NCBI GenBank assembly: GCA_002699125.1
Contig: PABI01000078.1
Coordinates: 62,001 to 126,000 of the forward strand
Length of the DNA: 64,000 bases
From: Anaerolineaceae bacterium
GTDB taxonomy: Bacteria > Chloroflexota > Anaerolineae > Promineifilales > Promineifilaceae
Reading direction: 5' to 3'
How positions within the stretch are numbered: position 1 is the stretch's first letter; each line of letters begins with the position of its first letter. The notes under the pieces were generated by a model, which was given only the letters and a program-made list of their open reading frames with translations, searched no databases and was not told where the DNA came from. Shown piece after piece: positions 6,986 through 37,357 of the stretch. Position numbers and translations under genes: made by a program.

Positions 6986-9900
6986 TTACAGTTCCTCTAC
7001 AAAGCGGTAGCTGGTTCGCAAAAAGAGTTGGTACCCGACAACCAACAATCCCAGCGACCCTGACAATAAAATCAGCAGCGTTACAAAATTAGGCGCCTGA
7101 CCATTGATAAAAATCGCCCGATAGGCGTCAAGCAGCATCAGCAGGGGATTCAGCTTAAACAGCCATTGAATTCTTTCTGAAAAACGGCCGGCATCATAAA
7201 AAATGGGGGTCAGATAAAACAGCAGCAGCAAAAAGACGTTCAAAAGATGCTGCGTGTCGCGGAACATCACATGAAAAGTGGCCACAAAATAGGCCAGGCT
7301 CAACGTGAATAGAAACTGGAGCACAATGATCACGGGCAACCAGAAAACGTTTGGGGTCAGCACAATGTTGGTAAACAGCAAAAAAAGCAGCAAGATGGGC
7401 AGCGAGAGCAAAAAATGTATCAGGTTGGAGCCAACGGTTACCACCGGCAGCACAATTGGCGGGAAGCCAGGCCGACGAATCAGGTCGCGGCCTTCCAGAA
7501 TCACCGTGGCTGAAGCCGTGAGCGAGGCATTGAACCAACCCCAGGCCAGCAGGCCGGTGAAGAGATAGGCAGGATAATTGGAAATATCCAGCGGCAGCAG
7601 TGCCTGAAAGACAAAGCTAAACACCAGAAGCTGGGTAAATGGGTTTAGCAGCGACCACAAAATGCCCAAAATGGACCCCTTGTAGCGCAGTTTGATGTCC
7701 CTGGAAATCAATTCTCGCATGAGGTCGCGCAGGTAAAGCCAGCGGCGCGAGCTAAAAAAGGCGCCCACAATTTGCCAACGCTGCTTTTGTCTGGCCGCAA
7801 GATAACCGCCTGACAGCACAACCAGACCCAAGCCAAGCCACAAAGGCCAGCCCCAACCAGGTGCCCGCGTCACGAGTTGCTGCATCTGAATGGTGAGAGA
7901 CGGCCGTATCTCAACCACCTCACTCTCCACCGCCGTAACTTGATAATCAGCTCCTTGATTGGTATCCCACACCTCTACCCGCTCTGCGCCATTGTCAACA
8001 AACGTTTGAAAAACATAATCCAGTTGGGTTCTTTGGGCCACCGGCACCGTTACCGAGAAGCCATCCTCCCCAGGCGACATGGGCGTGTACAGCAGGCCGT
8101 CCACTAATTCCGTATCTGGCGGCCAATATTGCGTCGGCAACGACTGCCAGCCATTGATCCCCCACACCAGGTTAACGGCCGTTGCCCCCGGCAGCCGGTA
8201 GCGAATCTCTTGTGTGGTAACGGCCGTTTCTGCCAGGTAGGTACGCTCATCCACGGAGAGACCGGACTCATGGATTACCGACTCATTTGTGCCCACCAAA
8301 ATCTGGTAATCTTGCCCATTTTGCGTGTCCCATAGGTCAACCGGAGCATGCTGCTGGCCTTCCGTCACCTGAAAAACGTAGTCGAGCGCGGTTTCCGGCG
8401 GCACTTGCACCTCGGCCACAAATGTTTCCCCTTCTTTTTGCATGGCCGTTACCATGAGGTTGTCGATGACGGCCGTTTCTTCACGCTGAGATGCTGGTGG
8501 CAGTAGCTGCCAGCCATCAACACCCCACACCAGTTTAACGGCCGCAGCCTCCGGCAGTCGATAGCGGATCACCTGCGTCACCATTGGGCCGGCGGCAACA
8601 GCAGCATCCATTTGGGGCCGATTGGCAAACAATGATAGCTCGACCCCGTAGAGTGGAAACTGTTCGGCAGTTTCGTAAAGAGCAGTTAATCTTTGGGCCA
8701 CCACACCTTCTGTATCATTGCTGTTAGCCTGGACCAACCAGACACGATTAGCATCAGCAACCAGCTTGTCTATCTCTCCAAGATCGCGGTACTGTTCTTC
8801 GTCCGTATAGGAAGTGGCTAGATCAAATGGTAAATCCAGCGGCACCTGGCGCATGTCGTTGCGTCCAAAATAGTAGGCAAAAGCATTTTCCCTAATGCCG
8901 CCAGGATTGAACACAATCACGTCCCCAGCTTGCCCTTTGTCCTCTAAACGAGCGGCAACCTCGCGCCACTGCTGCTTGTCTACAAAAGCGTAATAACGAC
9001 TGACACCCATCAACGAGGTGAGAGCAATCAAAACCAGCAGCCCGTAACGCAGCGATGGCCAGCGGATGTGCCCCAGCGCCGCTGCCACCAGCAGGTACAA
9101 TCCCAGGGAAGCAGCAATGGTGTAGCGCGGAATCAAAAATGGCACGATGAGGCGGGAGGCTACAAAGGGCACAATTACTGGCAAGATCAGCCAAAGGAGT
9201 AGGAGAAGATAAACGGCCGTTCTATCCTGCCAAATTGCATGCACCCCGGTCTGGTTGAGTGAGGAACGGCCGTTCACCACCACAAACAAAACAAGTCCAG
9301 CAAACAAAAACAGCAGCAGCGTCGATTCAGACGCATAATCCAGGGCCGTGCTCCACAACGTGCCCACCGTCGGCACCGGAATCCAAACGCCAGTCGCCTG
9401 CATTGCCTGGACTTCCAGCAGCAAATAGCGCAGCCAGGGGGCAAACAATAGCAGTGTCGCTGCTTGAAGCGCCACCCAGCGCTGCCAGGTTAACGGCAGT
9501 ACTGGCCGTCGTTGCCAGTACATGAAGAGCCAAAACAAATTTTGCGCCGCCACAATGAAGACACCAAAAAAGTGCGTATAAAGCAGCACCACATTTACCA
9601 GCACGTAGCCTACGGCCGTCCAGCGCGAAAACCGTTCAAACAACCTGACAAACAGGAACATTGAAAGCAAGACCAGAAGCACCATCAAGCTGTAAGCCCG
9701 GGCTTCCTGGGAAAATTCGATGTGAAACAAAGAAATGGCCAGCAAAAAAGCGCTCAGCAGCCCCGCTTGTCGCCCCAACAGGCGGCGACCCAGCCAAAAC
9801 ATAACCGGCAGAGACAGGGCGCCAAACAGGGCCGAAAGAAACCGTAACGCCAGCTCCGAATCGCCGAAAATCTCTACCCAATAATGAAGGAGAATGAAAT

Positions 9901-10147
9901 AAAAAGGGGGATTCTTAAAAATGCGGTTGGCCAAAATGCCCGGCAGCGAAAGTCTGGCAACGGAAATGGACGTCCCTTCATCAACCCATAAACTTTCCGC
10001 GCCCAACCCGTAAAAACGCAGCGCAGTGCCCAGCAGCAAAATGACAATGAAAAAGATCTCGGCGCGCAGGAGCGTAAAAATCTTTGACTGCCAGCCAGAC
10101 GCTGCTTGATTTTGCTCGCTGGCACCAACCACATTTGGTATGCTCAC
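6986..10147 (-). CDS. Fusion: N-terminal GT-C/ArnT-PMT-like membrane glycosyltransferase, two tandem carbohydrate-binding-like modules, C-terminal ABC-2 (Wzm-like) permease
   Basis: N-term LRFYGLGAESLWVDEGTS...FSQEARAYSL; repeats IRYRLPEAAAVKLVWGVDGWQLLP / IRYRLPGATAVNLVWGINGWQSLP; C-term LISRDIKLRYKGSILGILWSLLNPF...SYRFVEEL. Confidence 0.9.
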   Translation of the reverse strand: MSIPNVVGASEQNQAASGWQSKIFTLLRAEIFFIVILLLGTALRFYGLGAESLWVDEGTSISVARLSLPGILANRIFKNPPFYFILLHYWVEIFGDSELALRFLSALFGALSLPVMFWLGRRLLGRQAGLLSAFLLAISLFHIEFSQEARAYSLMVLLVLLSMFLFVRLFERFSRWTAVGYVLVNVVLLYTHFFGVFIVAAQNLFWLFMYWQRRPVLPLTWQRWVALQAATLLLFAPWLRYLLLEVQAMQATGVWIPVPTVGTLWSTALDYASESTLLLFLFAGLVLFVVVNGRSSLNQTGVHAIWQDRTAVYLLLLLWLILPVIVPFVASRLIVPFLIPRYTIAASLGLYLLVAAALGHIRWPSLRYGLLVLIALTSLMGVSRYYAFVDKQQWREVAARLEDKGQAGDVIVFNPGGIRENAFAYYFGRNDMRQVPLDLPFDLATSYTDEEQYRDLGEIDKLVADANRVWLVQANSNDTEGVVAQRLTALYETAEQFPLYGVELSLFANRPQMDAAVAAGPMVTQVIRYRLPEAAAVKLVWGVDGWQLLPPASQREETAVIDNLMVTAMQKEGETFVAEVQVPPETALDYVFQVTEGQQHAPVDLWDTQNGQDYQILVGTNESVIHESGLSVDERTYLAETAVTTQEIRYRLPGATAVNLVWGINGWQSLPTQYWPPDTELVDGLLYTPMSPGEDGFSVTVPVAQRTQLDYVFQTFVDNGAERVEVWDTNQGADYQVTAVESEVVEIRPSLTIQMQQLVTRAPGWGWPLWLGLGLVVLSGGYLAARQKQRWQIVGAFFSSRRWLYLRDLMRELISRDIKLRYKGSILGILWSLLNPFTQLLVFSFVFQALLPLDISNYPAYLFTGLLAWGWFNASLTASATVILEGRDLIRRPGFPPIVLPVVTVGSNLIHFLLSLPILLLFLLFTNIVLTPNVFWLPVIIVLQFLFTLSLAYFVATFHVMFRDTQHLLNVFLLLLFYLTPIFYDAGRFSERIQWLFKLNPLLMLLDAYRAIFINGQAPNFVTLLILLSGSLGLLVVGYQLFLRTSYRFVEEL

Positions 10148-11970
10148 GGTCGTGCCCCTTTGCTGTTAGCACCTGCACACAGGCGGTTAAGCAGCGAGGT
10201 GGGATCCGTTAACGGCCGTTCCAGCAAAGCATGTTGCACCACCGCCCGGCATAGATCAAAATCGGCTGCCTGCGTGAGCGCCGCGCGCAGCCGTTGTGCC
10301 GGGATACGTCCGGTCTCGGTCGGCAGCGTCACCGTCGCCACCGGTTCGCCCGCCACGGTCAGGGTTATGGCGGCCTCAGCCCCATTCACCAATAAATCGG
10401 GTGTTGGCTCGGCTAACGCCAGGGTCACGTTGCTTTCAATCTCCCGGGTAGGCAGCTCGCCCCGCTCCACCATCGCCTGATCGTAGAAATAAGCAGATGG
10501 CCAGGTGGAGCGCCGCCATACCTCTTGCAAAAACAGCTGCCAGCCAACTTCATTCCAGGCGTGGGTCCAAAATGCATCCGGTTCTGCCGGCGGCACCGTG
10601 CCAAGAAGCAGCGAGCCGCGCCACAAGGAAACGCTCGCGTCGCCTTCTGCCTTCTCCAGCTTAGGGAAAAGATGGTAAGCAAAGTACCGGCCTAAAATCG
10701 GCCAGGCAAACGCCTGTGCAATCTCTTTCACGACGCACTCGGTAGTAGCGTTTTTGGTTAGTGCCACCGCCCCCAAATAGGCACCTTCGAGCAAGACCTC
10801 ATACCGGCAAACGGCCGTTCGCCGCGGCGGAGAAACAAGCACAATCGGCTCAGACACCTCCACAGCCATGGCCCAGGTACGCCCAACTGTACACGGCCGT
10901 TCCCGAGGCGAATGCTCCAAAATGAGCCGTTCCAAATGACGCAGGGCGGGCTGAACCAGATCCGGCGCCTGAACCTGTTTGGCCAGGGCCGACAGGAACG
11001 CTTTAACCAGGCCATCTATTTTCGGCCAGAGCAAATCCCAACCGTCAGTGCCCATGCCATGCGGCAAAAGGGCCGCCTCAAACAAAAAAGCCGCTACGTG
11101 CTCCGGATCGAGGTCTGGATAACTATCGTCACCCAGCAGCGCCAGAAACGGCCGTGGATCTTCTCCGCTGCCTAGCATCAGCCCAAACGGCCAGCAAGCA
11201 TAGCGAATGCGAGCCCCAGCAGCCTGGGTAGACGGCATCCCTTGTGGGTATGGCGAATCGGCAAACGTCGGATCTGGCCTGTGCGCCTGGTTGATGACCC
11301 GCAGACCAACGCGAAGAAGCCTTACGCCTTTCAAGGAAACAGAACCGGGACGGGTGCGATACAGTGCCAAAACTTCCCGTACCGCGCCAAATCGTGCCCC
11401 GGCACGGGCAATGCGCTGCCAAAAATCCCAATCCTGGCAAGACGCCAACGAGGCATCAAATCCGGAAACGGCCGTTACCAACGCACCCCGCACCACACAG
11501 GCATTCGGCTGAAAAACACACCGTTCGGCAAACAGCGGAAATAAATCCGGCGCGTCAGGCGCAAAGTGAGGCTGGTCCCAACTGCCATCCGGGGCAACCC
11601 GGTGCCAGCCGCAGTGCACAGCATCCAGGCTGGCATCTTGCCGCAGCGCTGCCGTCATTTTTTCCAGATGGGCGGGCAGCAGCCAGTCGTCGGCATCCAA
11701 AAACAACAGCCACTCATGGCGAGCCTGGCCAATGCCCTTGTTGCGCGCCGCGCTGCCGCCGGCATTGGCCTGCTGCCACAAGTGAATACGGCCGTCTTGC
11801 TGTGCATAGCGCTGCACAATTGCCGCCGTCTCATCCATCGAACCATCATCCACCACAATCAATTCCCAATGGGGCATCGTCTGCGCCAGCACAGACTCAA
11901 TCGCCGCGCCAATGGTGGCTGCCGCATTGTAGGCTGGCATCACAATAGAAACTGGCAAAAACTCATTCAT
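10144..11970 (-). CDS. Glycosyltransferase family 2 with ~300-aa C-terminal extension of unknown function
   Basis: VSIVMPAYNAAATIGAAIESVLAQ...VVDDGSMDET...ARNKGIGQARHEWLLFLDADD. Confidence 0.9.
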   Translation of the reverse strand: MNEFLPVSIVMPAYNAAATIGAAIESVLAQTMPHWELIVVDDGSMDETAAIVQRYAQQDGRIHLWQQANAGGSAARNKGIGQARHEWLLFLDADDWLLPAHLEKMTAALRQDASLDAVHCGWHRVAPDGSWDQPHFAPDAPDLFPLFAERCVFQPNACVVRGALVTAVSGFDASLASCQDWDFWQRIARAGARFGAVREVLALYRTRPGSVSLKGVRLLRVGLRVINQAHRPDPTFADSPYPQGMPSTQAAGARIRYACWPFGLMLGSGEDPRPFLALLGDDSYPDLDPEHVAAFLFEAALLPHGMGTDGWDLLWPKIDGLVKAFLSALAKQVQAPDLVQPALRHLERLILEHSPRERPCTVGRTWAMAVEVSEPIVLVSPPRRTAVCRYEVLLEGAYLGAVALTKNATTECVVKEIAQAFAWPILGRYFAYHLFPKLEKAEGDASVSLWRGSLLLGTVPPAEPDAFWTHAWNEVGWQLFLQEVWRRSTWPSAYFYDQAMVERGELPTREIESNVTLALAEPTPDLLVNGAEAAITLTVAGEPVATVTLPTETGRIPAQRLRAALTQAADFDLCRAVVQHALLERPLTDPTSLLNRLCAGANSKGARP

Positions 11971-25154: not shown

Positions 25155-27968
25155 ATGCTTGCCTCATTAAATCTTCTTAAAATCCGGACAGATGATGTAG
25201 AAACGCAGCGCAAAGGTGCCCTGCTGCAAGGCTTGATTGTTGCTTTAATTGGCCTAAGCATCGTCCGGGCAATTTTTGAGATTTTTCAGCCAGCTGAAAT
25301 ATCCCCACAGGCAGCCCTCGGCCAAATTATTACCTCCACTTTATTTGGCATACTTTGCCTGTGGGTGGTCCGCACGGGCAACATTCGTCTGGCAGCCCAC
25401 CTCTTTTTTGCCGTTCTTAACACAATTTTTTTTGTCCTGCTTATTACAATCTCCAGAAACCTGTTTTTCCCCTACCTGATGCTTATTTCAGTTGTGGCCA
25501 TTGCCACGCTGGATTCAGTCCGTGCTTCAGTTTTGTACAGCGTTATCACGCTTACGGCCGTTACTTCATATTTCATTCTGACAGGTACACTTTCACTGCT
25601 GGCAGTTGTGGAATTTTCGGTGACGTGCCTGGGTATTAGCATTGTGGCCTGGGCTACATCAGACTATTTACAGACCGCGCTGCGCAACTCTAAAACGCTG
25701 GCGGGCGAGCTGCTTAACCAAAGCAATTTATTGCAGCGGCGCGCCCAGCAGCTGCAATTTAGCGCCGAAATCGCCGAAAAAGGCAGCAGTTCTCTGGATT
25801 TGGCCCAACTTTTACAGGAAACGGCCGTACTCCTCAAGTCGCAGTTTAGCTTTTACCATGTCTCCATTTTTCTCACCGATCCCAGCAAAACAGCCCTGCA
25901 TTTGCGTGAGGTAGCCACCGACGTTCATATCGATTTGATCAATTTGCAATATAAACTGCCCATCGATAATCACTCCGTTGTGGGCTGGGTTGGTCTGCAC
26001 CGAGAGCCACGCATTGTAGACGATGTGGAAACAGACGAAGCATACAAAGAAGAACCATTTTTGCCTCACACCCGCACAGAATTGGCGCTGCCTTTGGTGG
26101 CACGAGGTGAACTGCTGGGTGTACTTGATGTTCAGGGCGACCAGCCAAACATCTTTGCCCAAGAAGATATCGCTATTTTACAAATCATTGCCAACCAGAT
26201 TGCCATCAACATCGACAACGCGCGACTGTTTGCTAAAACAGAATCACGCCTCAACGAAACGCGCATTTTGTATGAATTTAACACGCTCCTCTCCGGCACC
26301 TTAGATGTGGGTGAGCTGCACCGGCGCTCAGCACGCGCCTTAACCACCTGGCTGCACGCTTCCCGCTGCATCATTTACTCTTGGGACAAAGAAGAGGAAA
26401 CCGTGACGGCCCAGGTTGACTTTATTTATGATTTGGTAGCCGGGTCTATTGACCAATATCTGCTTGATTTGCCCACCTATGAGCTGACAGAGCGGCACAG
26501 TATGCACAAGGTACTGACTTCCGGACAGCCTAAGGTGTGGCGCTTAGAGGACATCCAACTCGACGAGATTGAACGGCAGCACCTGGAAGCGATTAAGCTG
26601 TCCAGCTATTTAGATATTCCCCTGGTACGCGGCAAAGATACGCTAGGAATCATTCGCCTCTATCGCAATAAATCGCAAGGAACGTTTACCGACAGCGAGA
26701 TTCAACTGGCACAGGCGATGGGAAATGAAACGGCCGTCTCCCTGGCCAACGCCACACTCACATCAGAATCACAGGCCAGAGTAGCCCAGCTCAGCTCGCT
26801 GAACCGGCTCAGTCTGGCTTTGTCAGAAGCCCCGGATCTGCCACAAGTTTTCAAATCCACCAGACGGGAAATTCTCTCCCTCGTAGAAGCGACCGGTTTA
26901 GCCATTTTCTTGCTCAATGAAAAGCGTACGCGGTTAAACTGGTTATATCTTCATGATTATGGTGAAGAAGTTGATTTGTCCAACATCCCGCCGCTCACCC
27001 TGGATTCAGGTTTTAGCGGACACGTTGCCCGCTCCCGTTCTCCATTGCATATTCAATCCACGCCAGAAAATCGTGCCAAATACAATTCTTTCCAGGTCGG
27101 CAGCACTGATGATGCCCACGAATTTTGGCTCGGTTTGCCGCTCATTGTAACCAATGAGCTTATTGGCGTGCTCTCTTTACAAAATCTGGAGCCGTTTAGC
27201 GACCGCGACATTGAACTATTGACAACCATTGCCGGTGCATTGGCCATTGCTATCAACAACCTGCTGCAATTAGAGGCTATACAAAAAGCGCTCAATGTTC
27301 AGTTCCAGCAGCGCCTGCAAATTCAAACGGCCGCAGAGGTCGCTGCCGCCGCCACAACAGTTTTGGAACAAAACACGCTGGCTCAAGGGGCGGTCGAACT
27401 CATCAAAGATCGGTTTAATTTGTATTACGTGGGGTTGTTCCTGGTAGAAGATAATTATGCCGTGCTGAAGGCCGGTACCGGTGAGGCCGGCGAAGCTCAG
27501 CTGGCCGCCAAGCGGCGACTGGAAGTTGGCGGACACTCTCTCATCGGTGGGGCAACCAACGACGGTAAGCCCCGCATTACCCAGGATGTGACGACAGACC
27601 CGGAATGGCTGCCCAATCCCCATCTACCAGATACCCGCTCAGAATTAGCCCTACCCCTACGGGTGCGGGAGAGAACGATCGGGGCGCTGACGGTGCAAAG
27701 CCTTACGCCCAACTTGTTCACTGACGATCTGATTGGGGCGCTGCAAATTATGGGCGACCAGCTCGCGGTTGCTATTCAAAACGCGCAGTTGTTGGCCAAT
27801 GCCGAAGCACGCGCCAAACGGCAGGCACATCTAAATGAGATCAGCGCCCAGCTGCACCAATCAGCCGATGTGGAAACGATTGTGGGGATTGGCCTGCGCG
27901 CTTTATCCAAACAGCTTAAGGGAACGGCCGTTGAGCTTGAGCTCGGCCGCCATACAAAAACATCATGA
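25155..27968 (+). CDS. Membrane-anchored multi-GAF sensor protein without kinase domain
   Basis: N-terminal TM helices; repeated GAF modules (SELALPLRVRERTIGALTVQS...LQIMGDQLAVAIQNAQLLA). Confidence 0.88.
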   Translation: MLASLNLLKIRTDDVETQRKGALLQGLIVALIGLSIVRAIFEIFQPAEISPQAALGQIITSTLFGILCLWVVRTGNIRLAAHLFFAVLNTIFFVLLITISRNLFFPYLMLISVVAIATLDSVRASVLYSVITLTAVTSYFILTGTLSLLAVVEFSVTCLGISIVAWATSDYLQTALRNSKTLAGELLNQSNLLQRRAQQLQFSAEIAEKGSSSLDLAQLLQETAVLLKSQFSFYHVSIFLTDPSKTALHLREVATDVHIDLINLQYKLPIDNHSVVGWVGLHREPRIVDDVETDEAYKEEPFLPHTRTELALPLVARGELLGVLDVQGDQPNIFAQEDIAILQIIANQIAINIDNARLFAKTESRLNETRILYEFNTLLSGTLDVGELHRRSARALTTWLHASRCIIYSWDKEEETVTAQVDFIYDLVAGSIDQYLLDLPTYELTERHSMHKVLTSGQPKVWRLEDIQLDEIERQHLEAIKLSSYLDIPLVRGKDTLGIIRLYRNKSQGTFTDSEIQLAQAMGNETAVSLANATLTSESQARVAQLSSLNRLSLALSEAPDLPQVFKSTRREILSLVEATGLAIFLLNEKRTRLNWLYLHDYGEEVDLSNIPPLTLDSGFSGHVARSRSPLHIQSTPENRAKYNSFQVGSTDDAHEFWLGLPLIVTNELIGVLSLQNLEPFSDRDIELLTTIAGALAIAINNLLQLEAIQKALNVQFQQRLQIQTAAEVAAAATTVLEQNTLAQGAVELIKDRFNLYYVGLFLVEDNYAVLKAGTGEAGEAQLAAKRRLEVGGHSLIGGATNDGKPRITQDVTTDPEWLPNPHLPDTRSELALPLRVRERTIGALTVQSLTPNLFTDDLIGALQIMGDQLAVAIQNAQLLANAEARAKRQAHLNEISAQLHQSADVETIVGIGLRALSKQLKGTAVELELGRHTKTS

Positions 27969-28804
27969 CCCAGGCAGATCACATAGACAGCCCAGACCAA
28001 CCCAATACCTCTGCTTTTTTGGACACCAGCTTGCCTAACGTGGCCCGGATTTTTGACTACCTGGTCGGGGGCACAGCCAATTTTGAAGTAGATCGCCAGG
28101 CCGCGCAAGAGATGCTTAAATTAATGCCATCGCTGCGCAAATGGGTGCGGCTGCGGCGGGCTTTTATTCAAGAAGCCGCCCAGCTTTTGCGCCAGGAAGG
28201 GTTTACCCAATTTCTAGACATTGCCTCGGGGATGCCGTCTGATGACCACCTGCACACCATTGTTGCTGACAGGCGAATTGTGTACAGCGACGTCAATCCT
28301 GTGGCGGTGAGTTACGGCCGTAGTCTGTTTAGCAATCACGAAGATATTGCCTACATTCGGGGGAATGCCCTGGAGCCGGAAACCATTCTAATGACCCCTG
28401 AGGTTCTTAAACTTATCCATCTGGACGAGCCCGTTGCCATTGGGCTGAATGGCATTCAGCTTTTTATTACGCCGGAGCAAACGCAGCGTTTAGCCCACGC
28501 CCTGTACGAGTGGGCACCCAATGGCTCCAAGCTGTTCCTGGTTTTCCAAACGCACGGCGAAATGGATGATCCTGAAGGATATTATGAATTCCTAGAATTA
28601 TGCCGCCGGGCCAATTTACCAATTCGCCTAAACACGCTGGAAGAATCTGTAGAAATCCTCAAGCCGTGGCATCCCAGTCTGGTTGAACCCATCACCCAAT
28701 TTTTAGGGCTGCCCGCCGATTTTATTACCGAAGACGACCGCTCAGGCATCGATATGGCCTTTTATGCCGCCTTTTTTCTGAAGCAAGAGTTTGCAGCCAA
28801 TTAA
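27965..28804 (+). CDS. SAM-dependent methyltransferase of the PF04672-like family
   Basis: SLPNVARIFDYLVGGTANFEVDRQAAQEML...FLDIASGMP...VYSDVNPVAVSYGRSL; 4-bp ATGA overlap with previous CDS. Confidence 0.85.
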   Translation: MTQADHIDSPDQPNTSAFLDTSLPNVARIFDYLVGGTANFEVDRQAAQEMLKLMPSLRKWVRLRRAFIQEAAQLLRQEGFTQFLDIASGMPSDDHLHTIVADRRIVYSDVNPVAVSYGRSLFSNHEDIAYIRGNALEPETILMTPEVLKLIHLDEPVAIGLNGIQLFITPEQTQRLAHALYEWAPNGSKLFLVFQTHGEMDDPEGYYEFLELCRRANLPIRLNTLEESVEILKPWHPSLVEPITQFLGLPADFITEDDRSGIDMAFYAAFFLKQEFAAN

Positions 28805-28807
28805 CCA

Positions 28808-31800
28808 ATGCAAGAACAAAAGCACGAGCAAGACACAGCCACCATTTGGGGCGCTGCCGTAAACGAACTGGAAACAGCTCTTTACAACGCCTTCATTCGG
28901 CACGCCATCGATAATCGCGGAGTGCTCACCTCGCCGCGGCGCGGCCGGCAAGTGGCCAGCCAAATTTCGTCTTTGGTGCAGCAATACCTGGCATTCGAGG
29001 CCAATGAATCAGATATTACGGCCGCAGCCACCCAGCTGGCCGAACAGGGCATGGCCATGGTCACGGCGACGCAGATGATGCGTGTTCTGCATCGCGCGGA
29101 ACATAATTTGGTGGATACGGCCGTTGCCCGCCGCCTCAACGATTTCCAAATTCTCTTTCTGGAAAAGGTAGCCAACGCGCGTGAAATTGTGCAGCAGCGC
29201 TTTCAGGAAACCGCCCAAACTGCCTTACAGCGTGCCCTGCACACCCAGCTAGAACAACAAATCTCCCTGCACGAACTCCAAAAACAGCGCAATGCCAATC
29301 TTAACCAGATTTTGCAGCTGAATGCCCGGCTTAGCCAGGCAAACGATGAAGCCACGCTGCTGCGCGAAGCCGTAACCGGTATTTGCCAGGCGTTGGATAT
29401 CACCAACGTCACCCTGTTTGAAGCCCTGGAGCCACCAGATGTGTGGCGGGTCATCACCACCACTGCCCCCTTTCTGAACCAGGGTGATAATGCCCCGGCC
29501 AAAACTGCCGATATGCTGGCCACAGCGTTTGGCAAAGACGGCGAAGTCGTGCGCGCTTACCAATCTGAAGAAGGTGACGATGGCATCTCTGTGGGCATTA
29601 TTTTGCGCGTGGGGCAGCGGCTTTTAGGTGCCATGGTGGCCAACCACGGCAGTCTGGCCACCGAAAGTTACGAAGAATATCTCATTCTGGTGCGCACCTT
29701 TGCCCAAAACCTGGCAGCCCTGTGGCACAATCTTTATTTGCTCAACGAAACCCAGCAGCGCGCCCATGAACTAGAAATATTGCACGGCCGTTATCTGGAC
29801 AGCATCTGGAACACGCCCGAAGCAACCTTACAAGCCCGCGCCGACGACAGCAGCCTGAACATTGTGCGTGAAGTCACAGAGCAAGCAGCGCCACTGCCGA
29901 CAGCACAATCAACGGTTTACCCATTACAACTTGGCGACAACAGCTTTGGTCAGATTCGCATCCCAGGCCTGGAGAATTTGTCTGAAGAAGAGCGGGACTT
30001 TGTACAAGACCTGATTCGGGAGATGGGCAGCGCCCTGAACAACGCCCAGTTTGTGCAAACGACCCGCGCTTATTCCAACCAGCTGCGCCTGGCGTCTGAA
30101 GTTTCCCGTGCCGCCAGCACCATTCTGGATCGCGATCAGCTCATCCAGGAAGTTGTAGAGCTAATCCGCTCGCGCTTTAATTTGTATTACGTTGGCCTGT
30201 TTTTGGTGGACGAAAAGGCCAATACGGCCGTTCTCCGCGCCGGTACCGGTGAAGCAGGTCGTCTGCAAATTGAGCTCAACCACAGCCAGGAAATTGGCGG
30301 CGGGTCTATGATTGGTACGGCCGTAGCCACCGGCGAGGCCCGCGTCGAACAAAACGTGCAGCAAGCCACCGCCTTCAAACCCAATCCCCTGCTGCCAGAC
30401 ACCCAGGCAGAATTGGCCCTGCCGCTCAAAACAGGTAACAAAGTCATCGGTGCCCTTACCGTGCAGAGCAGCCAACAAGGCGCATTTGCCAGTGAAACGG
30501 TCACCGTTCTGCAAAGTTTGGCCGACCAGCTGGCCATTGCCATTGAAAACGCCAACCTGTTTGCTCAAACAGAAAGCACGCTTGACGAAACAAACCGCCT
30601 GTACACCGCCAGCCGCCGCATTGGGCAGGCCACCAACGCCTACGAAATCTACAAAACGCTGGTCGATTTTGCCCGCAACACTGAAATCGCCCAGGTTGTA
30701 AAAATCATCATCGCCGATCCAAAAGCACCAGATTTTGTCATCATCCCCGTCGCCTGGAGCTCAATTGATATTGAGATTGAGTCAAACCTGCGGATGCCGC
30801 GCGAGACGTACAGCTTTGGCGACAGGCTCATCGATACCGACGTTCTTGTTGTGGCCGACGCCCAGGCGCAATCGGGCATTGATGAACATTCCCAACAAAT
30901 GTTTGTGCAAAATGATCTGCACGCCGCGGCCTTGATCCCCATTTACATCGAGCAGGAATGGTTGGGCACGCTGGCTTTAGCGCACAAAAAGCCAAATGCG
31001 TTTGCCAACGCCTCCCTCCAGCCTATGCGCACGCTGGCCGACCAGGCAGCTACTATTTTGGCCAACCAACGGCTGCTGCGCCAGACAGAGCTGCTTTATC
31101 GCATTGGTCGCGCCCTCAACCAGGCCATCACCCGTGATGATGCCCTGGATATTGCCGTGCGCGAGATTCAAGCGTACACCGGAGCGTATCAGTGCCGTTT
31201 TGTCAACTATAAGCCAGGTGCAAGCAGCGGCAGACTGCTGGCAAACTCCAGCAGCCAGCGCGTCGATAAGAATGCCCATCTGCCGCTGACGGGCGATTAC
31301 ACTTTTGAATATCTCAGCCAAGAGCAAAAGCCGCTGCTGCTTTCACCGCGCAATGATGCGCTCCCCAAAGAGACAATCGAGCAGCATGTAACGCAGTTTG
31401 GGGCATACGCTTCCTTGCTCATTCCGGCGGCCAGCCAGCAGGAGCTGCTGGGGTATCTAGCTATTGATTCGGTGAGTGGCGAACGGCCGTTCACTCGTTC
31501 CAACATCATCTTTGCCCAAACCGTTGTAGACCACCTCACCACCCAGCTAGAAAACGTTAAGCTGCTGGATGAAGCGCTGCACCGCGCCCAGGATTTGATA
31601 ACCCTGAACCAGGTACAGGCCAACATCTCGCGTGCGCTGGATTTGGAAATATTGGCCAGAATCATCTATGGTGAGGTAGGACGCCTGCTGGATAACACCT
31701 GCTTCCAACTGGCCCTATACGAAAAAGAAACCAACCAATACCAACCCGTCCTTACGATGGTTGAAGATAAACCTGTTGCTACCCAAGAACGCACCCTTTC

Positions 31801-32851
31801 ACTGGACGAGCCGCTGTTTACGTTTCTCAATCAGGACAAGCCGCAGCTGCTGGATGCCCACGCGCCGCTGGCCCAGACGGAGCAGTTTGCCCAGAACGGC
31901 CGTACAACCCAATCAAGCCTGTGGGTGCCCTTGCTCCAAGATGGTGTGCCAGTCGGCCTCATCAGCGTGCATTCTTACGAACCGCTTGCTTATGGCGAAA
32001 GCGACACGCAGCTGCTGCGTAGTATTGCTACCCAAACCAGCCTGGCCATTGCCAATGCACAGCTGTTCCAGCAAACCCAGCAGCAAAATGAAGAGCTGCG
32101 CGAACTGGACCAACTTAAAACCCAGTTCCTGGCCAACATGTCCCACGAGTTACGCACGCCGCTTAACTCCATCATTGGCTTCTCGCGCGTGATTCTCAAA
32201 GGGATCGACGGCCCCACCACCCCTGCCCAGGAAGAGGATCTGCAATCAATTTATACCAACGGGCAGCATTTGCTCATGTTGATTAATGAGATTTTGGATA
32301 TGGCCAAAATTGAAGCCGGTAAGATGTCGCTCAACTTTGAAATGATTAATCTGCATACGGCCGTTGCCCCAGCCCACGACACCATGCGCAGCCTGATCAA
32401 CAGCGAGCGGGTTAATTTTATTTGGGACGTGCCCGAAGATTTACCGGAGATTGAAGCAGATGCTATCCGTCTCCGCCAAATTTTGTTGAATTTGTTGTCT
32501 AATGCCGCCAAGTTCACTGAAGATGGGGAAATCCACCTGTATGCCTATGCCGATGATGAGACGATCCATATTAAAGTGAAGGATACAGGCATTGGCATCG
32601 CCCCCGAGGATTTTGATAAGCTATTCATGCCTTTTGCCCAGGTTGACACGTCTAATACCCGTACGTCGAGTGGTACAGGTTTGGGTTTGCCCATCACAAA
32701 ATGGCTGATTGAAATGCACCAGGGTAGTATCAACTTTACCAGTCAACCGAATGAGGGCACCACCTTCCATGTCATTTTGCCGGTTCGTCAAAACAAAGAC
32801 AGACCGACAGAAATCCCCCTCGTACAACCAACCACCGACTCCATCAATTAA
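28808..32851 (+). CDS. Multi-GAF histidine kinase
   Basis: Several GAF repeats; HisKA FLANMSHELRTPLNSIIGFS; HATPase DTGIGIAPEDFDKLF...SGTGLGLPITK. Confidence 0.93.
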   Translation: MQEQKHEQDTATIWGAAVNELETALYNAFIRHAIDNRGVLTSPRRGRQVASQISSLVQQYLAFEANESDITAAATQLAEQGMAMVTATQMMRVLHRAEHNLVDTAVARRLNDFQILFLEKVANAREIVQQRFQETAQTALQRALHTQLEQQISLHELQKQRNANLNQILQLNARLSQANDEATLLREAVTGICQALDITNVTLFEALEPPDVWRVITTTAPFLNQGDNAPAKTADMLATAFGKDGEVVRAYQSEEGDDGISVGIILRVGQRLLGAMVANHGSLATESYEEYLILVRTFAQNLAALWHNLYLLNETQQRAHELEILHGRYLDSIWNTPEATLQARADDSSLNIVREVTEQAAPLPTAQSTVYPLQLGDNSFGQIRIPGLENLSEEERDFVQDLIREMGSALNNAQFVQTTRAYSNQLRLASEVSRAASTILDRDQLIQEVVELIRSRFNLYYVGLFLVDEKANTAVLRAGTGEAGRLQIELNHSQEIGGGSMIGTAVATGEARVEQNVQQATAFKPNPLLPDTQAELALPLKTGNKVIGALTVQSSQQGAFASETVTVLQSLADQLAIAIENANLFAQTESTLDETNRLYTASRRIGQATNAYEIYKTLVDFARNTEIAQVVKIIIADPKAPDFVIIPVAWSSIDIEIESNLRMPRETYSFGDRLIDTDVLVVADAQAQSGIDEHSQQMFVQNDLHAAALIPIYIEQEWLGTLALAHKKPNAFANASLQPMRTLADQAATILANQRLLRQTELLYRIGRALNQAITRDDALDIAVREIQAYTGAYQCRFVNYKPGASSGRLLANSSSQRVDKNAHLPLTGDYTFEYLSQEQKPLLLSPRNDALPKETIEQHVTQFGAYASLLIPAASQQELLGYLAIDSVSGERPFTRSNIIFAQTVVDHLTTQLENVKLLDEALHRAQDLITLNQVQANISRALDLEILARIIYGEVGRLLDNTCFQLALYEKETNQYQPVLTMVEDKPVATQERTLSLDEPLFTFLNQDKPQLLDAHAPLAQTEQFAQNGRTTQSSLWVPLLQDGVPVGLISVHSYEPLAYGESDTQLLRSIATQTSLAIANAQLFQQTQQQNEELRELDQLKTQFLANMSHELRTPLNSIIGFSRVILKGIDGPTTPAQEEDLQSIYTNGQHLLMLINEILDMAKIEAGKMSLNFEMINLHTAVAPAHDTMRSLINSERVNFIWDVPEDLPEIEADAIRLRQILLNLLSNAAKFTEDGEIHLYAYADDETIHIKVKDTGIGIAPEDFDKLFMPFAQVDTSNTRTSSGTGLGLPITKWLIEMHQGSINFTSQPNEGTTFHVILPVRQNKDRPTEIPLVQPTTDSIN

Positions 32852-32995: not shown

Positions 32996-34714
32996 ATGAG
33001 TAGCATAAAAATTGTATGTCGCGCCTGTGGCGCTAAATTTGATTTTGAACGGCCGTTACCCACCTGCCCCAACTGCAACAATCAATGGCTGGATGCCGAA
33101 TATGAACTGACCCATCCGCAGCAAAACGGCCATCTGGCCCAAAAAGGGCATGATTGGCTGCGCCAGCTAGACAAACGCGGCGCAACCCTGTGGCGCTACC
33201 GCGAACTGCTGCCCATTCACGATGATGAAAACATCATCACCCTCGGCGAAGGCTGGACGCCTTTGCTGCGGGCCCACAATTTGGGCCTCATGCTGGGTCA
33301 CCCCAACATCTACATCAAAGATGAGCGCCAGGGGCCAACCGGCTCATTTAAAGACCGCCAGGCAGCGATTGCCATCAGCGTCATGAAAGAGGCAGGCATC
33401 AAAGAAGCTGTTGTTTCATCTACCGGCAACGTAGCCATTGCTTATTCCGCCTACAGCGCCCGGGCCGGCATCAAAATGTGGGTGTTTGTCACCAGCTCGG
33501 TGCCCGCCGACAAAATGCGTGAAGTGGCGCTGTACGGCTCTGAAGTCATTAAGGTTGCCGGCACCTACGATGAAGCCAAACGCATTGCCGCTGAATTTGC
33601 CACCAGCAAAAATCTATTCCTGGATCGGGGCATCAAAGGCATTGCCGCTAAAGAAGCGATGAAAACATTAGCCTTTGAAGTCGCCGAACAGCTGGGCAGC
33701 ATCCACGCCGGGCAAAGTTCGACTATCCTCAACGGCAGCCAGCATCGCTGGCGCACGCCAGATTGGTACTTACAGGCCGTCAGCGGCGGATTGGGTCCGG
33801 TCGGCGTGATGAAAGGGTTTGCCGAATTAAAACGGCTGGGCCTGGTAGAAAAAATGCCCAAAATGGGTCTGTTCCAAACCAGCGGCTGTGCCCCCATGGC
33901 CAGCTCCTTCCACAAAGGGCTGGCCATTGCCGAAACGGTAAAAGAGCCGCGTACCGACATCACCACCCTGGCCACCGGTGCCCCCGGCGAAGCGTATGAA
34001 GTGCTGCGAGAGCTTATTAATGAATATGGCGGCACAATTGATGCCATCACCGACATAGAGGCGTTTAGCGCACTCCATCTGGTGGCCAAGATGGACGGAA
34101 TTTCGGTGGAACCGGCAACGGCCGTTACCTTTGCCGGCCTTTTTAAACTGATTCGTGAAGGTAAAATCCTGCCCCATGAAACCGTCGTGCTCAACTGCTC
34201 TGGCCACACCTTCCCCGTCGAAAAACATATCATTGGTGACCAGTACACGCGCGACATGACCCTGCCCGATACTGGCGAATTGACCCGCAGCAACCGCAGC
34301 CGCGAAGAAGGGCTGCTCACCGCCTTAGAAGAGCTGGACGACCGCGTCCAGCGCATTACGATTGTGGAAGATCATTTAGATGCAGCTCGGCTCATCCGCC
34401 GCATTTTGCAGGCACAAGGAGATTTCCTGATTGATGAAGCCCATGACGGGCAGACCGGGCTGCAGCTAATTCGCGAAACCCGACCCAACCTCGTCATTCT
34501 GGACTTAATGATGCCCGGTCTGGATGGCTTTGCCGTGGTGGAAGCCATGAAAGCCGATCCCGTGCTAAAAGAAACGCCCATCATTGTTATTACCGCCAAA
34601 GAGCTTACCGATGACGAAAAGCAGCGGCTGGACGGCCAAATTAAGGCATTGCTGCAAAAAGGCTCTTTTATGGATTCGGACTTGTTGAACGATATTCAAA
34701 AAGCTTTACCTTAG
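32996..34714 (+). CDS. Threonine synthase (PLP) fused to C-terminal response-regulator receiver domain
   Basis: Zn-ribbon-like CRACGAKF...CPNC; PLP motif GPTGSFKDRQA; STGNVAIAYSAY; C-term ITIVEDHLDAARLIRRIL...LVILDLMMPGLDG...IIVITAKEL...LLQKG. Confidence 0.93.
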   Translation: MSSIKIVCRACGAKFDFERPLPTCPNCNNQWLDAEYELTHPQQNGHLAQKGHDWLRQLDKRGATLWRYRELLPIHDDENIITLGEGWTPLLRAHNLGLMLGHPNIYIKDERQGPTGSFKDRQAAIAISVMKEAGIKEAVVSSTGNVAIAYSAYSARAGIKMWVFVTSSVPADKMREVALYGSEVIKVAGTYDEAKRIAAEFATSKNLFLDRGIKGIAAKEAMKTLAFEVAEQLGSIHAGQSSTILNGSQHRWRTPDWYLQAVSGGLGPVGVMKGFAELKRLGLVEKMPKMGLFQTSGCAPMASSFHKGLAIAETVKEPRTDITTLATGAPGEAYEVLRELINEYGGTIDAITDIEAFSALHLVAKMDGISVEPATAVTFAGLFKLIREGKILPHETVVLNCSGHTFPVEKHIIGDQYTRDMTLPDTGELTRSNRSREEGLLTALEELDDRVQRITIVEDHLDAARLIRRILQAQGDFLIDEAHDGQTGLQLIRETRPNLVILDLMMPGLDGFAVVEAMKADPVLKETPIIVITAKELTDDEKQRLDGQIKALLQKGSFMDSDLLNDIQKALP

Positions 34715-34927: not shown

Positions 34928-36202
34928 ATGTATATGGACAAAACAACAATACCGCTTGCAAAAATCTTGTACATCGAAGACGATCCCGCCAGTCGCCGGT
35001 TGGTACAGCGCGTGCTGGACAATAAAGGGTACGATGTGGTTGTAGCCGCCGATGGGCTTGAAGGCATTTCCATGGCCCGCGAACACCATCCCAACCTTAT
35101 CCTAATGGATATCAATCTGCCAAGCATGGATGGTCGTGAAATTACCACGCGTCTACGCAGCCTGCCTAACTTTTCAGACACGCCCATTGTGGCCCTAACC
35201 GCCAACCACAGTCCGGGAAGCCGTGAACTGGCCCTGGCCGCGGGTTGTACCGGCTTTCTTACCAAGCCAATTGATGTTTCCATATTCCCCAACCAGGTGA
35301 ATGCCTACCTGCACGGCCATGCCGAGCCCCTCTCCAAAGAAGAGCACAGCGAGCATCTCCAGCGGCATGCCCAAAATCTGGTGGAACGGCTGGAAAGTAA
35401 AATTCATGAGCTGGAAAGCGCCAACAAACGACTGCGCGAACTGGACCGCCTCAAGAGCGATTTTATCATCATGGTTTCCCATGAGCTGCGCACGCCGCTG
35501 ACCTTAATCAGTGGCTACGCCCATTTGTTGGATGAACAGGTAAAGCAAACCGATAATACACTGCCCGCGGAAATGGTCTCCGGCGTGGCCGAAGGGCTAA
35601 ATCTAGGCGTTACGCGCATGCGGGATGTGGTGAATGAAATCATCAAAGTTGCTCGCATTGCCTCCGGCACGCTGGACCTGGCTTTAGGCCCCGTGCGCAT
35701 CTCTGAAGTTGTTCAAGATATCTTTGAAGAGTTTGGTGAAGTGTGCAATAAGCGGCGGCTCAATGTGCAAATTGGGGATCTCTCCAAGCTGCCAATCGTC
35801 CAGGGGGATGGCGAACAGTTGAAGTCGGCTATTTACCACATTTTTAGCAACGCTGTAAAATACACGCCAGACGGCGGCAGTATTTTTGTTGTCGGTCGTG
35901 CTGTTGGTGATACGATTGATTTGATTATTCAAGATACCGGTATTGGCATTCCGGACAGCGAACATCGTCGCATTTTTGACCAATTTTATACGCTGGGTTC
36001 TATTGAGCACCACTCAACCAGCAAATTTGCTTTTCAAGGTGGCGGTTTAGGATTAGGGTTGGCCATTGTAAAAGGAATTATTGAGGCACATAACGGCCGT
36101 GTTTGGGTAGAGAGTGAACGACGCGATCCAGACCAATTCCCGGGCAGCACCTTCCACATTTTGCTACCTTTGGAGCAAGTAAACCAGACTGTAGAACTTT
36201 AA
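34928..36202 (+). CDS. Hybrid receiver-histidine kinase
   Basis: ILYIEDDPASRRLVQRVL...LILMDINLPSMDG; HisKA FIIMVSHELRTPLTLISGYAHLL; DTGIGIPDSEHRRIFDQF. Confidence 0.93.
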   Translation: MYMDKTTIPLAKILYIEDDPASRRLVQRVLDNKGYDVVVAADGLEGISMAREHHPNLILMDINLPSMDGREITTRLRSLPNFSDTPIVALTANHSPGSRELALAAGCTGFLTKPIDVSIFPNQVNAYLHGHAEPLSKEEHSEHLQRHAQNLVERLESKIHELESANKRLRELDRLKSDFIIMVSHELRTPLTLISGYAHLLDEQVKQTDNTLPAEMVSGVAEGLNLGVTRMRDVVNEIIKVARIASGTLDLALGPVRISEVVQDIFEEFGEVCNKRRLNVQIGDLSKLPIVQGDGEQLKSAIYHIFSNAVKYTPDGGSIFVVGRAVGDTIDLIIQDTGIGIPDSEHRRIFDQFYTLGSIEHHSTSKFAFQGGGLGLGLAIVKGIIEAHNGRVWVESERRDPDQFPGSTFHILLPLEQVNQTVEL

Positions 36203-36358: not shown

Positions 36359-37357
36359 ATGGCAACGCCACCCGGCAAACCCTCAGCAGTAAGCGTTCCA
36401 ACAGAAAAAGAACCTGAGGAAACGTCTGCTCAGGCTAGCAGCCAGCAGTGGAGTTTAGGACTACTTTGGGGATTGTTATCACCACTCTTTTTGGGCATTG
36501 TGCCTATTTTGGCCAAAGTGGCTTACGCGGCCGGTGTCAACGTCCTCACCGTAGTTGCATTTCGAACGGTCATTGCGGCCGTTTTTTTGTGGCTGGGGAT
36601 GCTGCTGTTCAAACGTCAGCTCATTCGCAGTTCACTGCCGGCCGTCCTTAGCAGCATGATCGCCGGAGCCATCAATGGTCTGGGCTCCATCTTCTTCTAC
36701 ACCAGTCTAACCCGCATCGACGCCTCTCTGGGCCAATTGGTCAACATCACCTATTTGGTGTTTGTAACGGTTTTTTTGCGGCTGGCGGGGCAAACCATTT
36801 CCGTGCTCACCATTTTTCGCACGATCCTGACAATTGGCGCGATCTACCTGCTCACGCGCGGGGGCGCGGGGCCGGCAGATTGGCTGGGGGTAGGCATGAT
36901 GCTTGTTGCCGCCATCACCTATGCCATTCAGCTGGTGCTCAGCCAGCGCATTATGCTGGACATACCTGCACCCACCATGACGCTGTACGCCATCACTGCG
37001 ATGGCGGCCGTTGTGACCGTGGCCTGGTTTGTCGCCCCGGTGGATCTGGCGCTGGTTAGCACAGACGGCTGGCAGGCGATTGGTTGGATGGCCCTGGTAA
37101 CCGCGCTTTCTCGCCTGACGCTCTTTTTGGGGGTCAAAGCCATGGGCAGCATTCAAACGGCACTGCTGGGTGTGTCCGAAGTGGTGGTAACGATTGTGAT
37201 TGCGGCCATTTTTCTGGGTGAGCGTCTAACGTTGCTGCAATGGGTAGGTGCGGCTGTTTTAATGGTAAGCATCTTCCTAGTGCGCTTTGAAAAAGGCGTG
37301 CCCCGCTTCATCGACTGGTGGCAGTTCCTCTGGCGCCGTTTTTTGCCAAAGAAGTAA
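36359..37357 (+). CDS. EamA/DMT-superfamily transporter
   Basis: About ten hydrophobic segments with EamA repeats (ILAKVAYAAGVNVLTVVAFRTVIAAVFLW; FLGERLTLLQWVGAAVLMVSIFLV). Confidence 0.88.
   Translation: MATPPGKPSAVSVPTEKEPEETSAQASSQQWSLGLLWGLLSPLFLGIVPILAKVAYAAGVNVLTVVAFRTVIAAVFLWLGMLLFKRQLIRSSLPAVLSSMIAGAINGLGSIFFYTSLTRIDASLGQLVNITYLVFVTVFLRLAGQTISVLTIFRTILTIGAIYLLTRGGAGPADWLGVGMMLVAAITYAIQLVLSQRIMLDIPAPTMTLYAITAMAAVVTVAWFVAPVDLALVSTDGWQAIGWMALVTALSRLTLFLGVKAMGSIQTALLGVSEVVVTIVIAAIFLGERLTLLQWVGAAVLMVSIFLVRFEKGVPRFIDWWQFLWRRFLPKK

Follow-up and report, generated by a model that had tools for sequence, protein, structure and literature searches.

Domains of the fused ORF and its neighbors

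The window analyzed here, a stretch of DNA of 64,000 nucleotides, carries one uninterrupted ORF of 572 aa (32996-34714, forward strand, no internal stop) in which a fold-type II PLP enzyme is joined to a response-regulator receiver (REC) domain (Table 1). Both parts are recognized by Pfam far over the cut-off (PALP, E 5.9e-58; Response_reg, residues 454-557, E 3.8e-19), in agreement with a preliminary description of the locus, which had read the ORF as an enzyme with a Zn-ribbon-like N terminus, a catalytic Lys in the motif GPTGSFKDRQ and an intact C-terminal REC. Alignment places that Lys at residue 119 and identifies, in addition to the phospho-acceptor D503, the acidic pair (E458 and D459), the conserved Thr (T533) and the conserved Lys (K555) of the receiver, the last of these preceding Gly (KG), where Pro is usual. 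The predicted structure (mean pLDDT 81.7) consists of the PLP-enzyme domain and the receiver with a linker between them; residues 405-438 have a pLDDT below 50, and the linker is thus predicted to be flexible. The flanking genes are also those first reported, a multi-GAF histidine kinase and a REC-HisKA-HATPase protein, and Pfam further identifies an EamA-family transporter and two more genes on the same strand.

Table 1. Coordinates in the window of the fusion gene, its domains and residues, and the neighboring genes
Feature	Position	Strand	Basis
Zn-ribbon / PALP enzyme / REC fusion protein, 572 aa	32996..34714	+	ORF, Pfam, orthologues
N-terminal Zn-ribbon-like region, residues 5-36 (C8, C11, C24, C27)	33008..33103	+	Alignment
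PALP (fold-type II PLP enzyme) domain, residues 81-403	33236..34204	+	Pfam; threonine synthases in the fold search
Catalytic PLP lysine K119 (aligned with K61 of T. thermophilus threonine synthase)	33350..33352	+	Alignment
Residues 209-224, LDRGIKGIAAKEAMKT, in place of the threonine-synthase motif NSxNPxRxEGxKT	33620..33667	+	Alignment
Residues 402-410, SGHTFPVEK, conserved end of the enzyme domain; S402 at the T. thermophilus T317 position	34199..34225	+	
Inter-domain linker, residues 411-451, of variable length across the family	34226..34348	+	Alignment and model
REC (receiver) domain, residues 452-572	34349..34711	+	Pfam, alignment, model
Phospho-acceptor D503	34502..34504	+	Alignment
Conserved REC lysine K555 (KG motif)	34658..34660	+	Alignment
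Multi-GAF histidine kinase (GAF, HisKA, HATPase_c), candidate phospho-donor, without a REC of its own	28808..32851	+	Pfam
REC-HisKA-HATPase_c protein, second candidate partner, orthologues beside the fusion in many relatives	34928..36202	+	Pfam
EamA-family transporter	36359..37357	+	Pfam
Multi-GAF protein lacking a kinase domain, synteny kept in close relatives	25155..27968	+	Pfam
S-adenosyl methyltransferase family protein (Methyltransf_19), synteny kept in close relatives	27965..28804	+	Pfam

Distribution and conservation of the fused family

Given that the window comes from a draft genome (188 contigs, 8.39% contamination), the joined ORF might be an assembly artefact, a read-through or a chance joining of two genes. 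The same one-piece ORF is found in many independent assemblies, several of them consisting of one contig, and the 32 fused members in the enzyme-domain tree fall into a single clade (support 100/100). The independent genomes already refute an artefact, including the assembly error involving two separate ORFs that had been envisaged beforehand, and we consider that this explanation has practically no chance of being right.

In a search for relatives, about two dozen genomes proved to encode enzyme domains with 54-94% identity; below an identity gap, ordinary synthases follow at no more than 40%. Among 396 genomes of the class Anaerolineae, 146 match the enzyme with an E value of up to 1e-65, and among the matches listed, ORFs are long enough to hold the receiver; the contig that carries the one clearly short ORF that we examined (G333, 486 aa) has a length of only 3,558 bases. 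The family extends over much of the phylum, with members also outside this class, in f70 and in the genus g254. The cultured type strain Herpetosiphon aurantiacus 114-95T (DSM 785) very probably carries the fusion, and this probable member makes the family testable. None of 249 Pseudomonadota genomes matches at E 1e-58. No relative was found in viral contigs, no phage record covers most of the query, and plasmid matches stay below 60% identity (at most 37% among the matches listed); a mobile or viral origin was rejected on these grounds. The family includes a second architecture, PALP-REC-REC, of about 700-744 aa. At five loci (L097-L101) such proteins, of about 700-720 aa, each have a histidine kinase before them, and three of these loci have a lone REC of about 120 aa after them.

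Conservation was counted residue by residue over 57 distinct members, 56 of which have a complete receiver. The results show that K119, the carboxylate-binding loop S142-T143-G144-N145 (STGN), the four Cys of the Zn-ribbon and D459 are invariant (57/57), and that D503 and K555-G556 are present in every member with a complete receiver (56/56), so that neither the catalytic Lys nor the phospho-acceptor Asp is lost on alignment, a prospect that the preliminary description had left to be checked. The receiver of the fusion thus has the acidic pair, acceptor Asp, Thr/Ser and Lys of a response regulator, and the output domain keeps its catalytic residues, as required of a response regulator with an enzymatic output. 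Both halves look active, and the invariance of the catalytic residues argues for real catalysis rather than for an enzyme fold that serves as a mere signalling output, which was the other possibility raised at the outset.

Substrate site of the enzyme

The enzyme had been named a threonine synthase, and threonine synthases are its best NCBIfam models, its best fold matches in the PDB (21-31% identity) and the solved structures that match it best in sequence. It has in common with them the fold, the catalytic Lys and the STGN loop, as well as a Zn-ribbon as in the PRK08197 type. The fusion nevertheless misses every curated NCBIfam threonine-synthase cut-off (253.9/303, 178.9/421 and 160.9/167.1 bits). 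A check for a standalone thrC, which had been proposed, revealed three other synthase-like genes in the same genome, one of which passes PRK08197 (L002, 571 bits vs 303) and two TIGR00260 (thrC; L003 and L004), together with a thrB over its cut-off.

We then compared the substrate sites. The motif of true synthases, NSxNPxRxEGxKT or STxKEPYRxEGxKT (T. thermophilus has NSVNPHRLEGQKT, and ordinary relatives have STLKEPYRxEGKKT), is absent from the fused family, where a different fixed stretch takes its place (LDRGIKGIAAKEAMKT in the fusion), with D210, G212, M222, K223 and T224 invariant. At the position of T. thermophilus R160, Arg never occurs in the 57 members, which have Ala, Ser, Gly, Thr or Val instead; S155 and N188 of T. 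thermophilus are each replaced by Gly, and T317 by Ser in most members, while R111 and D210 are newly gained and invariant. From the published structures, we take S155, R160 and N188 of T. thermophilus to be contacts of the substrate phosphate. It is uncertain whether phosphate can no longer bind, as 29 of 31 members have a Lys or Arg next to the position where R160 is lost. Among the fold-type II PLP enzymes, we see the fusion as a descendant of the threonine-synthase branch with a remodelled substrate site, and this remodelling makes it probable that the substrate is an amino acid other than O-phosphohomoserine.

A genuine threonine synthase, with an activity set via phosphorylation of the fused receiver, is in our assessment an unlikely reading of the protein. 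Such a reading would account for the matches to threonine synthases and for the conserved K119 and STGN, and phosphate could still be bound by the conserved basic residue next to the former Arg; it has against it the missed cut-offs, the exchange of the substrate motif for another fixed one, and the presence of thrB and three further synthase-like genes, all of which weaken a role in the threonine pathway. In addition, the fused enzymes, with mostly Ser at the T317 position, stand apart from the PRK08197 and TIGR00260 synthases in a clade of their own, whose stem amounts to 1.84 changes per column. The name threonine synthase is therefore unsupported, and the members are enzymes likely to carry the annotation threonine synthase that probably catalyze another, undiscovered reaction. 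Regulation added to a threonine-synthase fold is known from the plant enzyme (1e5x, 2c2b), which is among the best fold matches and is activated by binding of S-adenosylmethionine, where the fusion has a receiver instead.

Neighboring kinases, possible origin of the receiver and proposed working

To place the fusion in its context, we compared 40 loci. In 34 of them, the gene directly upstream, on the same strand, encodes a histidine kinase, and no kinase immediately precedes the fusion at L062, L102, L103, L107, L110 and L111; the H-box was found in 40/40 upstream kinases examined. The next gene downstream encodes a receiver or receiver-kinase at 22 of the 40 loci, and an EamA transporter occurs within three genes downstream at 16. 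Close relatives have the operon-like order of the window, that is, multi-GAF protein, methyltransferase, GAF kinase, PALP-REC, REC-kinase and EamA. A sequence search for a solved relative of the EamA transporter found none. At one locus (L104:11788-12573), the multi-GAF protein and the kinase are separated by a gene for a 262-aa ParA/BcsQ-like ATPase, and ORFs of similar size, without a match to the genes of the window, occupy the same position at L105, L109, L116 and L131.

In more distant members, the upstream kinase ends in two receivers. In a REC tree, whose rows were picked for similarity to the PALP receiver, the PALP receivers and the last receiver of these tandem-REC kinases share a branch (SH-aLRT 99), together with one row from elsewhere in the genome, whereas the first receiver of the kinases, the receiver-kinases encoded downstream and almost every other receiver of the genome fall outside. 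Moreover, the linker of the fusion contains GLLTALEELD, which resembles the DLVTALERLN found before the last receiver of the kinases. The shared branch and the similar linkers suggest that the receiver was captured from, or is shared with, the neighboring kinase.

Of the earlier proposal, a biosynthetic enzyme controlled by phosphorylation, the threonine-synthase identity lacks support, as seen above, and there remains a fusion that is real, ancient, conserved and located next to histidine kinases, of which phospho-control of the enzyme is the natural reading. We thus favor, with a probability of roughly 0.55, a response regulator that has a working, specialised PLP enzyme as its output and is switched by the neighboring kinase. 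According to this model, the adjacent kinase would sense a signal through its GAF domains and pass a phosphoryl group to Asp503, and the phosphorylated receiver would turn the activity of the tethered enzyme up or down, probably via altered docking or oligomer state; the linker, which starts right after the conserved SGHTFPVEK, is a possible coupling path. The EamA transporter may carry the substrate or product of the enzyme. Against the model stand the predicted flexibility of the linker, the lineages that lack a kinase immediately upstream and the basic residue next to the R160 position. A more far-reaching version, namely a phylum-wide module in which the kinase directly switches the synthesis of an amino-acid-derived compound that is exported by EamA and possibly serves as a cell-to-cell signal, is speculative and, we think, quite improbable.

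Information could also run in the opposite direction, from the enzyme fold to signalling, if the PALP domain were mainly a sensor whose bound amino acid or PLP adduct sets receiver phosphorylation or the choice of partner. PLP-fold sensors are known in the MocR-type regulators (PMC5320631), the locus is rich in signalling genes, with a second receiver or receiver-kinase so often following the fusion, and PALP-REC-REC forms exist. A full catalytic set that is invariant in 57 proteins is however more than a sensor would need, and EamA transporters recur next to the fusion, so that we regard a sensor as rather unlikely. We find it still harder to credit that the receiver is a fixed, unphosphorylated structural add-on for oligomer formation. 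This has a precedent in the extended AAT-fold lysine/ornithine/arginine decarboxylases, PLP enzymes whose N-terminal wing derives from a CheY-like receiver (PMC8503589); those enzymes belong to the unrelated aminotransferase fold, while the fusion combines a PALP domain of fold type II with a C-terminal REC. Unlike the wing, the receiver of the fusion keeps its phospho-acceptor, with D503, D459 and K555 retained wherever it is complete, and it adjoins kinases.

The favored reading, a kinase-switched enzyme, brings the fusion close to response regulators with enzymatic outputs (CheB, GGDEF, EAL, HD-GYP), with which it shares a complete receiver, an enzyme and an adjacent histidine kinase. It differs from them in its C-terminal REC, in its distribution over much of a phylum rather than one genus or family, and in its output, a fold-type II PLP enzyme of amino-acid metabolism, whereas most known enzymatic outputs make signals or modify proteins. 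Bacterial two-component systems act mostly via gene expression or second messengers. The joining of a metabolic enzyme to a receiver, beside a sensor kinase in many Chloroflexota, suggests that an outside signal may set the enzyme directly; if so, a receiver inside a small-molecule PLP enzyme would provide a direct route from stimulus to metabolite, rather than one via a gene, and response regulators would gain an amino-acid-type PLP enzyme among their outputs. Fusions of a receiver to an enzyme are already known, for example the archaeal ones to KaiC, a glycosyltransferase, thioredoxin reductase and pyruvate phosphate dikinase (PMC5847659). In the open literature we found no paper describing a PALP-receiver fusion, which is weak negative evidence.

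In the genome of the window, the PRK08197-type synthase has a lone REC gene just upstream of it (G000:C87, about 8446-10176; L002, L115); as a parallel link between receiver and synthase this pair is weak, its neighbors being an MFS transporter and a tyrosyl-tRNA synthetase. At another locus (L130), PALP-REC is followed by a lone REC and then by a PRK08197-type synthase.
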